Below are positions 35,840 to 42,397 of a DNA stretch of 64,000 nt, piece by piece. Position numbers and translations under genes: made by a program. Every line of letters begins with the position of its first letter. Position 1 is the stretch's first letter. Below the pieces are notes generated by a model. That model worked only from the letters and a program-made list of their open reading frames with translations. It made no database searches and had not been told where the DNA came from. Origin of the DNA: Sediminicola luteus (GTDB lineage: Bacteria; Bacteroidota; Bacteroidia; Flavobacteriales; Flavobacteriaceae); assembly GCF_002514735.1 (NCBI RefSeq), contig NZ_NBWU01000005.1, positions 124,001 through 188,000 of the forward strand. The letters run 5' to 3'.

Positions 35840-37747
35840 ATGAGTAATTATCACATTAAGCATCTGGAGGAATATTATCAAGTGTATCGGAAATCGGTAC
35901 GGAATCCGGAAGCCTTTTGGGAAGAAATAGCCGAAGAACATTTTGTTTGGCGAAAGAAATGGGACAAAGTATTGGAATGGGATTTTTCCAAGCCTGAGGT
36001 AAGTTGGTTTAAAAATGCCAAATTGAACATTACCGAGAACTGCCTAGATCGCCATTTGCCCACCCGTCGCGATAAGACCGCTATATTATTCGAACCGAAC
36101 GACCCTAAAGAGGGAGCGCAGCATATTACCTATGGTCAATTACACGAAAGGGTTTGTAAAATGGCCAATGTTTTGATAGAAAAAGGGGTGAGAAAAGGCG
36201 ATCGGGTCTGTATATACCTGCCCATGATACCCGAGTTGGCCATTTCTGTTTTGGCTTGTGCCCGCATTGGGGCCATTCACTCGGTGGTGTTTGCCGGTTT
36301 TTCATCTACAGCACTGTCTACCCGTATTAATGACTCTGATTGTAAAATGGTCATTACCTCCGACGGTTCGTATCGGGGCAATAAAACTATCGACCTTAAA
36401 GGTATTGTAGATGCGGCATTGGAAGATTGCCCAGGAGCGAATACCGTATTGGTAGCCAAAAGAATCCACTCGGATATATCCATGCAAGAGGGTCGTGATT
36501 TTTGGTTGGCCCCACTTTTGGAGAATGCCTATGGCGACCGAAATGCCGAGATTATGGATGCCGAAGACCCTTTGTTTATCTTGTATACCTCGGGTTCTAC
36601 GGGTAAACCCAAGGGTATGGTACATACTTGTGGGGGCTATATGGTGTATACGGCCTATACCTTTAAAAACGTATTTCAGTATCGCGAAGAAGATGTGTAT
36701 TGGTGTACTGCCGATATCGGTTGGATAACCGGACATTCGTATATCGTTTACGGTCCGTTGGCCAATGGCGCTACTACGGTAATGTTCGAGGGTGTGCCTT
36801 CGTATCCGGATTATGGTCGTTTCTGGGAAATCGTTGAAAAACATAAGATAAACCAATTCTATACGGCCCCGACCGCCATTCGAGCTTTGGCCAAAGAGAA
36901 TTTGGATTATGTAGAAAAATATGACCTATCGTCTTTAAAGGTGCTAGGGTCTGTGGGAGAGCCTATTAATGAGGAAGCTTGGCACTGGTATAATAACAAT
37001 ATTGGTAAAAAACATAGTCCGATCGTAGATACTTGGTGGCAGACCGAGACCGGGGGCATTATGATTACACCTATACCCTATGTAACTCCGACTACCCCAA
37101 CCTATGCCACTTTGCCTTTTATTGGTATACAACCTGCCTTAATGGACGAAAACGGACAAGAAATTGAAGGCAACCAAGTCGAAGGTAGGTTGTGTGTGAA
37201 ATTCCCATGGCCTTCTATGGCACGTACCATTTGGGGCAACCATGAACGTTATAGGGACACCTATTTCTCGGCCTATGACAATAAATACTTTACCGGCGAC
37301 GGAGCCATGCGCGATGCCGTGGGTTACTATCGAATAACAGGTAGGGTAGACGATGTGATTATTGTATCTGGACATAATCTGGGTACGGCCCCAATTGAAG
37401 ATTCGATCAATGAACACCCAGCCGTTGCCGAATCGGCCATTGTTGGTTTCCCACACGATGTTAAGGGGAATGCCTTGTATGGCTATGTGATCTTAAAGGA
37501 AACCGGCGAAAGTAGGGATCGCGATAATTTGAGAAAAGAGATCAACCAGCAGATAACCGAACAGATCGGCCCAATCGCTAAATTGGACAAGATCCAATTC
37601 GTGCCCGGTTTGCCCAAAACCCGTTCGGGTAAGATTATGCGTCGTATTTTGAGAAAGATAGCTTCTAAAGACACTTCGAACCTTGGCGATGTAAGTACGC
37701 TACTGAATCCGGAGGTGGTCGAAAAGATTATGGACGAGGCTTTGTAG
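35840..37747 (+). CDS. acs: acetyl-CoA synthetase
   Basis: A 635-residue AMP-forming acyl-CoA synthetase that activates acetate to acetyl-CoA in the cytoplasm. Motifs: YTSGSTGKPKGMVHT (ATP loop), TWWQTETGG, the hinge region YYRITGRVDDVI, and PKTRSGKIMRRILRK with K598, the residue controlled by acetylation in other Acs proteins. Full length. Flavobacteria often encode several acs-like genes, so other short acids cannot be excluded. It stands alone; a hairpin with a T run at 37786 follows. Confidence 0.94.
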   Translation: MSNYHIKHLEEYYQVYRKSVRNPEAFWEEIAEEHFVWRKKWDKVLEWDFSKPEVSWFKNAKLNITENCLDRHLPTRRDKTAILFEPNDPKEGAQHITYGQLHERVCKMANVLIEKGVRKGDRVCIYLPMIPELAISVLACARIGAIHSVVFAGFSSTALSTRINDSDCKMVITSDGSYRGNKTIDLKGIVDAALEDCPGANTVLVAKRIHSDISMQEGRDFWLAPLLENAYGDRNAEIMDAEDPLFILYTSGSTGKPKGMVHTCGGYMVYTAYTFKNVFQYREEDVYWCTADIGWITGHSYIVYGPLANGATTVMFEGVPSYPDYGRFWEIVEKHKINQFYTAPTAIRALAKENLDYVEKYDLSSLKVLGSVGEPINEEAWHWYNNNIGKKHSPIVDTWWQTETGGIMITPIPYVTPTTPTYATLPFIGIQPALMDENGQEIEGNQVEGRLCVKFPWPSMARTIWGNHERYRDTYFSAYDNKYFTGDGAMRDAVGYYRITGRVDDVIIVSGHNLGTAPIEDSINEHPAVAESAIVGFPHDVKGNALYGYVILKETGESRDRDNLRKEINQQITEQIGPIAKLDKIQFVPGLPKTRSGKIMRRILRKIASKDTSNLGDVSTLLNPEVVEKIMDEAL

Positions 37748-37953: not shown

Positions 37954-37996
37954 ATACCATTTCAAAATTGAAATGGTATTGGGCGGGGTAACGCCC
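37954..37996. repeat. 26-bp palindrome plus small hairpin between acs and the Nramp-like gene
   Basis: Perfect 12-bp arms (ATACCATTTCAA and TTGAAATGGTAT) with a 2-bp centre at 37954-37979 are followed by GGGCG/CGCCC at 37981-37996. The pair lies just behind the stop of the minus-strand transporter gene and may end its transcript. Confidence 0.6.
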
Positions 37997-38001
37997 AAAA
38001 C

Positions 38002-39249
38002 TCAAAACAAAATAATATAGCCGTAATAGGCGGCGAAAAGGGTTAGGACCACAATACCGATATAGCTTAAAATATGGAGCCAAGTACCGGGCCGGGCCGT
38101 TGCGGGAATATGGTCTTGGTTCACCACTTTTAAGTTCATGTAGCCAAGCAAGGGGGCCATAACAAAAGATACAAAGGTGGCTATGCCCACCAGTATTCCC
38201 ATATTGGCACCAAAACCAAGAATGACCAAGAAGTTCACCAAGGCTAATAGCAATACCATTACCGTAAAACCTTTGGAGCTGCGCCATTTTAATTTTGGGG
38301 CCAACAGACTTACAACATCGGTATTTACCCGGGCAAGGGCATCGTGGGCGGTCATACAGGTACTGAACATGGTAGCGAAGGCGGCTATGGCGATTATGGG
38401 GTAGCTCCATGCTCCGATATGGGTCGTGAACAACGATACCAATTGATCGGCAAATGCGATTCCGTTCCCGCTAATTTCGGTGCCACTACCGTATAAGGTT
38501 AGCCAGCCGATAAGTAGAAAGAACAGGGCCAAAAGGGCGGTTAGGGCGTAGCCAAAGCCAAATTCGGTAAGGGCTTCGGACAGTGAGGGTTTGCGGGGGA
38601 GTAGTTTTTGTTTTTCCAGTCCCCAGAAACTCATCCAGGTACTGGCCTCTACGGCCGTTGGCATCCACCCGACCAAACCGATGATGAACAAAATACCGGC
38701 CCCATCGAAAAATGGTTGTGGGTTAAAATCGGGACTTGGGGAGATACTCCCTTTTACGACCACGGCTACGGTGGTTACCAATAAGGCTAAAAAAAGTAGG
38801 CTAACCACCCATTTTAAAGCGTTTTCGAGAAATTTATAACGCCCGATGATCAAAAGGGCCGAGATTAAGACGAAAAGTACCAAAGCCACGGTGGCCATAG
38901 AATAGCTAACCCCAAGAAGATTGATCAATAAGCCGGCCGTAACGGTGTATAAGGCGGCCAACATGGTCAGGGAAGAAACCAAATTGATCAGGGCATAGAA
39001 CCAAAGGTACCAACGGCCCTTTTCGGCATAGCCTTCAATAAGGGTTTTATCGGTAAGATTGGTATAGCGCACCCCGAATTCAAAAAAAGGATATTTGAGT
39101 ACATTGGCCAAAACGATCGGAATGGCCATAAGCCAACCGTATTGGGCACCGGCCTTGGTAGAAAGTACCAAATGCGAGGTGCCAATGGCCATAGAGGCAA
39201 ACAATAGCCCAGGGCCTAGGTAGCGTAATAGGTATTTTAGGTTTGGCAT
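38002..39249 (-). CDS. Nramp-family transporter with noncanonical metal-site motifs
   Basis: A 415-residue inner-membrane protein with 11 or so helices and an Nramp-like frame: RYLGPGLLFASM in helix 1, KAGAQYGWL after it, and GWMPTAVEAS in helix 6. In classic MntH/Nramp, helix 1 carries DPGN and helix 6 MPH. Here these positions read GTSH (residues 23-26) and MPT (196-198), so the usual Asp and Asn metal ligands are missing while the Met is kept. It may move another ion or work differently. No regulator or binding site is seen nearby. Confidence 0.8.
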   Translation of the reverse strand: MPNLKYLLRYLGPGLLFASMAIGTSHLVLSTKAGAQYGWLMAIPIVLANVLKYPFFEFGVRYTNLTDKTLIEGYAEKGRWYLWFYALINLVSSLTMLAALYTVTAGLLINLLGVSYSMATVALVLFVLISALLIIGRYKFLENALKWVVSLLFLALLVTTVAVVVKGSISPSPDFNPQPFFDGAGILFIIGLVGWMPTAVEASTWMSFWGLEKQKLLPRKPSLSEALTEFGFGYALTALLALFFLLIGWLTLYGSGTEISGNGIAFADQLVSLFTTHIGAWSYPIIAIAAFATMFSTCMTAHDALARVNTDVVSLLAPKLKWRSSKGFTVMVLLLALVNFLVILGFGANMGILVGIATFVSFVMAPLLGYMNLKVVNQDHIPATARPGTWLHILSYIGIVVLTLFAAYYGYIILF

Positions 39250-39713: not shown

Positions 39714-42026
39714 ATGATCTCTTCCGGTTCCCCCCTGAAGCATGACGATGAAATGGAGATCGACCTTCAGGAATTATTGGGTTTTGTACTGTCCCAATGG
39801 AAAAAAATGGTACTTGGTGGTCTTATTGGGGCCTTGTTGGCCTTTGGGTACTTAAAAACGGTTAATCCAAAATTTAGGGTTGAAACATCGGTACTGTTAA
39901 AGAGTGTAACGAATAGTATTCCAGATGAACTTTCGGTTTTTGATGATTTAGGTATGGTTTCAGGGTCGGCTAGTACCTTGGAAGATGAGATACAGTTATT
40001 TCGATCCCGCCCCTTAATAAAGCAGATGGTTGAAAAACATAACCTGCATATCCGTTATTATTCAAAAAATAGCTTTAAAAACACAGAGCTCTTTTTAGAT
40101 AAACCATTTAAATTGGAATGGTTAAGTCCCATTAATGATTCTTATACCTTTGATTTTGCCTTACTAGATTCGGAAAACTTTAGTTTATCGATTAATGGTT
40201 CCGAGGAAATGCCTCTGCACTTTAATAAGGAAATTGGCTATGAGAATGTTCGTTTTCGAATTATTCCATTATTGGATATAAACGCCTTAAAGGGGCAATC
40301 TTATCAGATTTATTGTACTCCTATCTCCAAAACGGTCAATCAGATTATTAACAACTTACAGATAAATCCACTTAGTGATAAAACCCACGGACTTACACTG
40401 ACTATGGAAGTGGAGCAAGCAGAGAGGGGACAATTGATATTGGAGGAATTGGTTGCTACCTACAATAAACTGGAGCAAGATGATAAAAATTTAATATCTG
40501 AAAATACGGCGGCATTCATTGATAGCCGACTAAAGGGAATTACCAAAGAATTAGTAATGGTTGAAGGTCATCTGGAATCATTTAAGACCCAACGGGTGTT
40601 GACCGATTTAGATATGGAATCGGGGCTTTATCTGCGGGATAATGCGCAATCGAGGCAAGAAATTAACACCTTGAGCACCCAATTGGAGTTGGCCCTTTTG
40701 ATGAAAAAATCCGTTCTCGAGGGTGGTATTCAGCTGTTGCCGACCAATATTGGTTTGGATCATAGTGGGGTTAAGGAAACCATAGATAATTTCAATCAAT
40801 TGATTTTAGAAAAAAACCAATTGCTGGAAAGTGCCTCGGAGAACCATCCTACCATTTTAACTATGAATGAACGTTTGACCGAGTTGCAAAAAGGAATAGC
40901 GATTAGTCTCGAAGGTTATATAGGGCAAATCGGTCAGCAAATTAAAGGGGCGGGTTCTTTTCAAGGGCAAACTTCAACGGCCTTGAGGGCTATGCCCAAA
41001 AAAGAAAGGGAATATCGTAGTATACAGCGTCAGCAGCATGTAAAAGAAAGTCTGTATTTGTATTTATTAAAGAAAAGGGAGGAAATAGCCATTTCATTAG
41101 CTTCGGTGGCCCCAAACGCCAAATTAATAAATAACCCCCATGTTCATGAGTCTCCCGTTTTTCCGAAGTATCATTTGATTTTGGCCGCTGGTACCGGTTT
41201 GGGGTCGGTTATTCCTTTGGTAATTAGTTTTTTACTGTTTTTTTTAAATGGAAAAATCAGCAATGGTCAAGAATTAGAAGCTATGGTCGGCATACCGGTA
41301 TTGGCCGATATAGCGAAGCATAAATCCAAAGTGAAGTACCTTTTTGGGGATGATGATTTTAGTAGTACGGCCGAATCGTTCCGTCTTTTGGATGCCAACC
41401 TCGATTTTATGTTGGATACCCATCCGGATGACACTTGCCGTACCGTTTTGGTGACCAGTTCCATTAGTGGGGAAGGTAAGTCTTTTGTGGCTTTGAATTA
41501 CGCCCGTAGTTTGGCGTTGGCCGGAAAAAAAGTGTTGTTATTGGATACCGATGTCCGCGCTTCGAAACTGATGGGGTATTTAGGGGTAGACCATGAATTC
41601 GGGCTCTCGGATTATTTAAGATACCCGCATATTTCTGTTTCCGACATTGTTTTCAAAGCAGAAGGTATACCTAAGCTCGATGTTATCGGTGCGGGTCAAT
41701 TGTTAAAATCGGTATCTGATTTTATGACGAACAGAAAACTTCGAGAATTAATAGAGCAACTCCAGTTAGATTATGATTACTTGATCATTGACACCCCGCC
41801 TGTGGCTACCCTTTCCGATACGTTACGTTTAAAAGACTACGCGGATATATGTTTGTATGTGGTCCGTGCGAATTATGTAGACAAGAAACTTCTTCATTTT
41901 CCAAAGAAACTATTTCAAGAAAATCGTTTTCGTCATTTTGCATTGATTATGAACGATGTAGATTATACCAAAACCGACTATTACAAATATGGGTATCTGT
42001 ATACTGAAAAAGGGGAGGTGGGGTAG
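39714..42026 (+). CDS. polysaccharide chain-length/tyrosine autokinase (Wzc-like)
   Basis: A 770-residue protein: Wzz domain with helix 1 at about 28-48, a long periplasmic coiled part, helix 2 at about 485-510, and a cytoplasmic BY-kinase with Walker A SSISGEGKSF (about 583), Walker A' VLLLDTDVRASK and Walker B YLIIDTPPVATL. The C-terminus carries a Tyr cluster (TDYYKYGYLY), the usual autophosphorylation site. Such proteins control capsule or exopolysaccharide length and export. Here no Wza-like or glycosyltransferase gene is near: the neighbours are a transporter and tRNA genes. ATG 39753 is an alternative start. Confidence 0.92.
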   Translation: MISSGSPLKHDDEMEIDLQELLGFVLSQWKKMVLGGLIGALLAFGYLKTVNPKFRVETSVLLKSVTNSIPDELSVFDDLGMVSGSASTLEDEIQLFRSRPLIKQMVEKHNLHIRYYSKNSFKNTELFLDKPFKLEWLSPINDSYTFDFALLDSENFSLSINGSEEMPLHFNKEIGYENVRFRIIPLLDINALKGQSYQIYCTPISKTVNQIINNLQINPLSDKTHGLTLTMEVEQAERGQLILEELVATYNKLEQDDKNLISENTAAFIDSRLKGITKELVMVEGHLESFKTQRVLTDLDMESGLYLRDNAQSRQEINTLSTQLELALLMKKSVLEGGIQLLPTNIGLDHSGVKETIDNFNQLILEKNQLLESASENHPTILTMNERLTELQKGIAISLEGYIGQIGQQIKGAGSFQGQTSTALRAMPKKEREYRSIQRQQHVKESLYLYLLKKREEIAISLASVAPNAKLINNPHVHESPVFPKYHLILAAGTGLGSVIPLVISFLLFFLNGKISNGQELEAMVGIPVLADIAKHKSKVKYLFGDDDFSSTAESFRLLDANLDFMLDTHPDDTCRTVLVTSSISGEGKSFVALNYARSLALAGKKVLLLDTDVRASKLMGYLGVDHEFGLSDYLRYPHISVSDIVFKAEGIPKLDVIGAGQLLKSVSDFMTNRKLRELIEQLQLDYDYLIIDTPPVATLSDTLRLKDYADICLYVVRANYVDKKLLHFPKKLFQENRFRHFALIMNDVDYTKTDYYKYGYLYTEKGEVG

Positions 42027-42092: not shown

Positions 42093-42177
42093 TACTCGAG
42101 GCGGGACTTGAACCCGCACGGCCATAATGGCCATTGGATTTTAAGTCCAACGTGTCTACCAATTCCACCACTCGAGC
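42093..42177 (-). tRNA. tRNA-Leu (anticodon UAA)
   Basis: An 85-nt class II tRNA. The acceptor arm GCTCGAG pairs with CTCGAGT (first pair G-U). The anticodon loop is GGACTTAAAATCC with TAA. The long variable arm (TGGCCATTATGGCCG region) and the T arm GCGGGTTCAAGTCCCGC are present. CCA is not encoded. No promoter element is visible between it and the tRNA-Gly terminator. Confidence 0.95.
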
Positions 42178-42321: not shown

Positions 42322-42397
42322 TGGAGCGAAAAACGGGATTCGAACCCGCGACCTCAACCTTGGCAAGGTTGCGCTCTACCAACTGAGCTATTTTCGC
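42322..42397 (-). tRNA. tRNA-Gly (anticodon GCC)
   Basis: A 76-nt tRNA including an encoded CCA end. The acceptor arm is GCGAAAA, the D loop has AGTTGGTAGAGC, the anticodon loop CTTGCCAAG contains GCC, the T arm is GCGGGTTCGAATCCCG, and the discriminator base is T as expected for Gly. Confidence 0.96.

Follow-up and report, generated by a model that had tools for sequence, protein, structure and literature searches.

An Nramp-related carrier of Sediminicola luteus outside the canonical Nramp family, with hints of resemblance to amino-acid permeases

An Nramp-related carrier that lies outside the canonical Nramp family is, almost certainly, what the gene P0001 of Sediminicola luteus encodes. 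The gene is located in the window analysed here, a stretch of 64,000 nucleotides (NCBI RefSeq assembly GCF_002514735.1, contig NZ_NBWU01000005.1, positions 124,001 to 188,000), and its product, a member of a common clade recognized by a G-x-S-H motif in helix 1, is labelled metal transporter by curated models, yet has none of the metal-site residues Asp, Asn and His. As to function, the explanation preferred here, and held tentatively, is that P0001 carries a small organic solute, independently of sodium, by a mechanism like that of the amino-acid-permease (APC) carriers. The features concerned are:

38002..39249, minus strand: the Nramp-related carrier gene P0001, an open reading frame with an ATG start and 415 amino acids
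39172..39183, minus strand: helix 1 motif G23-T24-S25-H26, at the DPGN position by profile alignment
38812..38814, minus strand: Lys146 in TM5, present in 56/56 clade rows and aligned with the APC TM5 lysine (8/11 APC rows)
38656..38664, minus strand: helix 6 motif M196-P197-T198, at the MPH position by profile alignment
38647..38649, minus strand: Glu201, the acid that follows the break in helix 6; 56/56 clade rows have D or E there
38341..38343, minus strand: Asp303 in TM8, present in 56/56 clade rows
38329..38331, minus strand: Arg307 in TM8, present in 56/56 clade rows and aligned with the APC TM8 arginine (7/11 APC rows)

In the Pfam search, P0001 is barely over the cut-off of PF01566 (30.9 bits, cut-off 29.8), which is the sole Pfam family reported, and PF13520 (APC permease family) gives no match at E up to 1; in NCBIfam, the protein matches NF037982 (64.4, cut-off 50). 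Profile alignment with nine canonical Nramps spans 360 columns at a probability of 97% and places GTSH over DPGN and MPT over MPH, which, together with the comparison with 30 canonical sequences, confirms the register given in the original prediction. The column pairs between P0001 and DraNramp are G23 with D56, H26 with N59, M196 with M230, P197 with P231 and T198 with H232, and in the 30 canonical sequences the same columns hold D, P, G, N and M, P, H, each in 30/30. The absence of the metal-binding Asp, also predicted earlier, therefore stands, G23 being in the D56 column. At the metal site, P0001 has Gly, His and Thr in place of Asp, Asn and His, while Met and Pro are retained; the Met of MPH is a soft metal ligand in Nramps. 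A Gly at the DraNramp D56 position also occurs in 35/35 PxpT-like and 5/5 GSGE rows.

This replacement goes beyond chance, since GTSH is found in 81/82 close rows (the remaining row has a later ORF start call) and W-M-P-T in 82/82. These rows comprise the query with its own copy in the genome, together with 80 loci at 60-65% identity, the best 80 of at least 577 relatives found in a contig scan. In the wider clade, aligned as 56 rows of which 54 are distinct, no variation is seen at G23, S25, H26, K52, K146, G194, W195, M196, P197, D303 and R307, and every row has D or E at positions 142, 201 and 229. Position 24 varies (V 34, T 16, G 5, A 1); position 198 does too (I 26, T 19, A 11), and the T in MPT is therefore no hallmark of the clade. 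A profile search (E up to 1e-30) detected the wider clade in 66/395 sampled Bacteroidota genomes, with one match each. The clade also occurs in some Proteobacteria, and relatives at 32-36% identity are present in Photobacterium, Pseudoalteromonas and Neisseria records, the three examined having GGSH; no clade relative was found in the viral contigs scanned. One clear clade member, from Photobacterium (L115), goes unmatched in Pfam at E up to 0.01, and Pfam-based counts consequently miss part of the family.

The canonical proton pathway is likewise missing from P0001, which has neither the TM3 acids nor the TM9 arginines. With helix limits taken from the AlphaFold model, an acid is found between TM3 residues 84 and 108 in 0/56 clade rows; when the stretch is extended to residue 114, P0001 still has none and D or E appears in 23/56 rows, at the helix end. 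In TM9, P0001 has no R or K at residues 327-347, where 25/56 clade rows have one, and at residues 330-347 R or K is found in 6/56. Together with the added TM5 lysine, these features fit the earlier proposal of a different coupling mechanism, which we too infer. It had also been proposed that P0001 carries another ion; this is possible, and the evidence gathered contains no pointer to a particular one. By sequence, the invariant acid after the TM6 break (Glu201) is a candidate for filling the Asp site.

That the Nramp frame is kept, as first suggested, is borne out by the NF037982 match, the 97% profile alignment and the predicted structure. An AlphaFold2 model built from 45 sequences (mean pLDDT 81.7, pTM 0.83) has DraNramp (6d91) as its top Foldseek match (E 7e-10) and as its best solved match in VIA-align (Z 37.7, 383 aligned residues), where the other Nramps and EleNRMT score about 27-36 (EleNRMT 7qia, Z 33.5) and AdiC reaches Z 31.4. 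This shared fold is uninformative on the substrate. In the model, DSSP assigns an unbroken helix 1 at residues 23-26 and a helix 6 break at 194-195; nothing is drawn from these assignments at the local confidence of the model (block means of pLDDT are 69 at residues 21-30 and 58 at 191-200, against 83 at 201-210). A phmmer search found no solved close relative, the best match (E 0.33) being an unrelated flagellin-type protein, and a profile of 10 clade sequences reached DraNramp weakly (E 0.0075). Homology and the LeuT/Nramp fold without DPGN, MPH and the proton pathway are the marks of the Gly-type Nramp-related proteins (orphan outgroup), and P0001 has them all.

What finds no support in the original prediction is its implication that P0001 is an Nramp that lost its Asp. 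Helix 1 motifs among the PF01566-type proteins examined in the phylum are diverse (DPGN, GPGT, GPGS, GSGE, GTGS, GAGD, SSGE, DAGG and G-x-S-H), and P0001 nests among the canonical Nramps in neither of two trees. In a 56-row tree, a 24-row G-x-S-H group (100/99) is apart from the canonical Nramps, which pair with NRMT (96/84). In a second tree of 36 rows, from which long-branch rows were left out and in which seven APC permeases serve as outgroup, the G-x-S-H clade (98/100) splits off first, the other sampled clades together forming its sister group (96/93); GSGE, GTGS, GPGS, GPGT and last the NRMT and canonical pair (83/72) follow in branching order, the GPGS fork being weak (85/73). The root is less sure because the APC outgroup branch is long (2.15). 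With the clade branching first and DPGN last, the metal-site Asp appears as a later gain and not as a loss here; on this sequence comparison, it was probably never present in the ancestry of the clade. The order agrees with the gradient of APC profile scores described below and with the published view of the Nramp-related proteins as paraphyletic to the canonical Nramps (PMC12873925).

Proteins of this kind are already known, since Ray et al. (2026, PMC12873925) describe Nramp-related proteins in which diverse residues replace DPGN and MPH, and by the text descriptions in that source the G-x-S-H clade is among these published, mostly uncharacterised groups. The same source describes Nramp-related proteins as entirely uncharacterised, with the NRMT-like and 'G-motif 3' groups as exceptions, and no functional study of the G-x-S-H clade was met in the open-licence PMC literature. 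The 'G-motif' groups (PMC12873925) and the Slc11 'orphan' outgroup (Cellier, PMC9606685, PMC10606218) have PF01566 and the LeuT fold in common with P0001, and according to the portions of these sources consulted they likewise are without DPGN, MPH and the proton-pathway residues and fall outside the canonical Nramps. What seems to be new here, as an alignment-based hint, is the invariant TM5 lysine and TM8 arginine aligned with APC permeases, neither of which is mentioned in the portions of the G-motif and orphan descriptions consulted; the word 'lysine' is absent from the text of PMC12873925.

Canonical Nramps are characterized by DPGN and MPH and NRMT by DxxG-TxxA/T (PMC8806188). DraNramp (MntH) has the closest solved fold and shares the helix 6 Met-Pro and a TM5 Glu with P0001, but identity in the profile alignment is 18%, and P0001 is without its metal-site Asp, Asn and His and its TM3 acids. 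EleNRMT is DPGN-less and of the same fold, as is P0001, but keeps the TM1 Asp (DAGG) and has Ala for the Met (PMC8806188), whereas P0001 has Gly and Met. PxpT/YcsG (MntG, 'G-motif 3') likewise carries Gly in place of the Asp. The GPGT clade, taken as PxpT/YcsG from a pxpA-linked member, lies between G-x-S-H and the canonical Nramps in the tree, and its 35 rows carry GPGT and V-P-Y-N motifs and, unlike P0001, are without the Met, the TM5 Lys and the TM8 Arg; P0001 in turn does not have the GPGT helix 1 motif, the inferred mark of PxpT/YcsG.

The resemblance to APC permeases emerges from profile comparisons. Against a profile of 11 amino-acid permeases from related genomes, the clade profile scores 48.2 with a probability of 76% over 309 columns, the GSGE profile 39.9 (5 rows), the PxpT-like profiles 33.5 (6 rows) and 31.9 (35 rows) and the canonical profile 18.8 (30 rows), while the reversed clade profile scores 28.8 and three shuffles 16.6-19.9. 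In 12 subsamples of the clade (6 to 30 rows), scores range from 34.2 to 54.9, and from 21.2 to 29.4 when reversed. Four of these 12 cover about 300 columns and the other eight just 84-152 columns in the C-terminal half, for which reason the pairing of Lys146 with the APC lysine rests on the full profile and the four long subsamples. These scores are a hint, drawn from sequence profiles, that the clade modestly resembles APC permeases and that the canonical Nramps do not. Single-sequence matches were rejected as a clade discriminator, as they separate the clade neither from other clades nor from a symporter: P0001 scores 23.0, the clade members L155, L116 and L180 score 22.6, 24.0 and 32.5, and single PxpT-like (GPGT), GTGS and GSGE rows reach 32.5-33.5; for comparison, ten unrelated window proteins gave 14.2-21.3, one sodium/solute symporter 17.1 and another 34.9.

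In the full match, besides the lysine and arginine pairs listed above, Gly194 aligns with the APC TM6 Gly (10/11) and Glu57 with the TM2 Glu (6/11). APC permeases (PF13520; e.g., ApcT, BasC and LAT1) have the LeuT fold in common with P0001 and, in this full profile match, align with it at the TM5 Lys, the TM8 Arg and the TM6 Gly; they differ in the Met196 column, which in the 11 APC rows holds E (7), D (2), I (1) or Y (1), and in that PF13520 does not match P0001. A K at the Lys146 column or up to two columns away is absent from the 30 canonical, 35 PxpT-like and 5 GSGE rows. Arg307 is common to the GSGE rows, and Asp303 is absent from those same three groups and present outside the clade in one GASH and one SSGE row. 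However, the TM5 lysine is not unique to the clade. A GASH sister sequence from Skermanella (L118) has the TM5 Lys, the TM8 Arg and Asp303, a GAGD sequence (L190) the TM5 Lys without the TM8 Arg, and the SSGE sequence (L085) Arg and Asp; since the first two share the lysine, the Lys/Arg/Asp pattern may be older than the clade.

In APC carriers, the TM5 Lys is reported to stand in for the Na2 ion in the sodium-independent BasC, GkApcT and LAT1 (PMC8399266) and to be the proton site in ApcT (K158; PMC6398981). For P0001, the analysis establishes the gene and its homology, the fold class of the model, the missing motifs, the invariant residues and, with a less certain root, the position in the tree; the substrate class, the role of Lys146 and the coupling are what we infer. 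The protein would be a secondary carrier with the LeuT fold, from a DPGN-less clade that branched early (G-x-S-H in helix 1; G-W-M-P...D/E in helix 6), and its alternating access would most likely follow the APC amino-acid carriers and not MntH. The breaks of helices 1 and 6 would bind a small organic solute (amino-acid-like or a carboxylate), with the Gly23-Ser25 loop, His26 and the helix 6 acid making the contacts. Transport would involve neither a Mn/Fe-binding Asp nor the Nramp proton wire, and Lys146 in place of the Na2 sodium would make it sodium-independent (i.e., proton-coupled or by exchange). An organic substrate has a precedent in a relative, as PxpT is needed for growth on 5-oxoproline, although its authors leave metals possible (PMC13274462). 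Against an organic solute speak the invariance of Met196 (56/56), His26 at the Asn ligand position, the occurrence of the TM5 Lys outside the clade, the modest APC match (76%), the missing PF13520 match and the Mn2+ import reported for YcsG (below).

The main rival is that the clade imports a transition metal through a rebuilt site of His26, Met196 and Asp/Glu201 with a different coupling, a possibility we consider rather doubtful. In its favour, H26, M196 and the acid at 201 are all invariant in 56/56 rows, and in the Met196 column, among three other clades, only the canonical one has Met (30/30), the PxpT-like rows having T/S, in a register off by about two, and the GSGE rows T. Moreover, B. 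subtilis YcsG, a relative from a Gly-type group, is reported to be a Mn2+ importer that raises cellular Mn2+ (PMC10448178). A further reported Mn importer, whichever clade it belongs to, is A. baumannii MumT, with under 25% identity to known Nramps (PMC5050338). Against it, P0001 has no TM1 Asp, which is kept in each metal-transporting clade named (Nramp, NRAT and NRMT; PMC8806188), both trees place the clade apart from the metal-transporting groups, and the APC-like TM5 Lys and TM8 Arg are left unexplained. Genome content would also favour a metal importer, because a DPGN Nramp is held by 1/66 clade genomes and by 146/329 genomes without the clade, as expected if one replaces the other; by genus, 1 of 30 is shared compared with 56 among 171 (p 6e-5). 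These counts were made by hand, with DPGN calls defined as E below 1e-100 and the motif confirmed in part of them, and with 35 rows at E 1e-45 to 1e-54 set aside as PxpT-like. However, the exclusion follows lineages, which are non-independent, and was therefore rejected as independent evidence for a metal importer; as 33/35 PxpT-like genomes also carry the G-x-S-H clade, life style may be all that it reflects. A single genus supplies the DPGN rows of family f1.

In the genome of S. luteus itself, no DPGN Nramp was found at the thresholds used. The one other PF01566 member over the cut-off is a GPGT/VPYN protein (C3:530161-531360; locus L001:1411-2613, minus strand). As the gene beside it is presumably pxpA, this is probably, from sequence, a PxpT-type 5-oxoproline carrier. 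Two weaker, sub-cut-off matches are taken to be sodium/solute symporters.

That P0001 is a former canonical Nramp whose motifs were lost, and is now decaying or acts as a non-transporting sensor, is quite improbable: the DPGN and MPH motifs are indeed absent, but many residues are invariant in the 82 close and 56 wider rows and each of the 66/66 genomes has one clade match, and the clade is not nested in the canonical Nramps. A Mg2+ transporter of the NRMT kind is very improbable. Mg2+ transport by an NRMT has been reported (PMC4072509), and NRMT is likewise a DPGN-less relative in the same Pfam family (PMC8806188), but its DxxG/TxxA/T signature contrasts with the GxxH and Met of P0001, the two NRMT-type rows adjoin the canonical Nramps in the trees, away from G-x-S-H, and no riboswitch was found at the Rfam gathering threshold in the 6 sources searched, which returned tRNAs only.

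Gene neighbourhood was also considered as a clue to the substrate, and no neighbour pointing to one was found in close or distant loci. P0001 is flanked by a convergent gene on the plus strand (35840-37747), which we take to encode an acetyl-CoA synthetase (acs), and by a divergent gene on the plus strand (39714-42026), presumably for a Wzc-like tyrosine kinase, 465 bp from the carrier start. With these window genes at its sides, P0001 shows no pxpABC linkage. Promoter-like and terminator-like sites are not more frequent than in shuffles. Between the convergent genes, the window contains a perfect 12+12 palindrome with a 2-nt centre (37954-37979); its pattern has one other site in the genome (C2:771970) and occurs in 0/100 window shuffles, and it is possibly a two-way terminator or a binding site. 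Two tRNA genes lie on the minus strand of the window (42093-42177 and 42325-42397).

Among the close loci (L005-L084, the best 80 of at least 577), 71/80 have a DUF218 (SanA/YdcF-like) gene directly upstream on the same strand, its identity being confirmed by Pfam in one of them (L013). This neighbour was discarded as a general substrate clue: in S. luteus the only DUF218 match is on another contig and not beside the carrier, and the distant relatives are without an upstream DUF218 gene (39/40 loci analysed, L160 left out). The neighbours of the distant relatives are presumably hemolysin-III-like in one group and ECF-sigma-like and lipA-like in another. In six flavobacterial loci (L167, L172, L176, L179, L180 and L181), the carrier follows an ECF sigma-like gene, sometimes overlapping it, and has a lipoyl synthase-like gene downstream, directly or after one gene.

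The clade also bears on a published reading in Neisseria. The 2.17 Mb record NZ_CP119140.1 of N. gonorrhoeae yields a single PF01566 match, a G-x-S-H protein 417 aa long (L116:4974-6227) that carries the motifs GGSH and GWMPAPIE. A 417-aa Nramp-domain 'MntH', with a suggested manganese role tied to the Gonococcal Genetic Island, has been described (PMC10272882) and appears to be the same protein, given the identical length and the sole PF01566 match; that manganese reading, as given in the part of the source consulted, rests on the family name. The function of the Neisseria MntH homolog is described elsewhere as untested (PMC9280163).

On a broader and more speculative view, which we rate as doubtful, the G-x-S-H clade is a surviving link between APC permeases and Nramps, i.e., a sodium-independent organic-solute carrier that retains the APC TM5-lysine coupling from before the metal-binding Asp arose. 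If so, many bacterial genes annotated as 'Nramp family divalent metal transporter' or 'MntH', the gonococcal mntH included, would not encode metal importers. In any case, the usual metal-transporter label of P0001 calls for testing before it is relied upon. If the clade predates the metal site, it would offer a point from which the change of amino-acid-type carriers into metal carriers could be put to the test.
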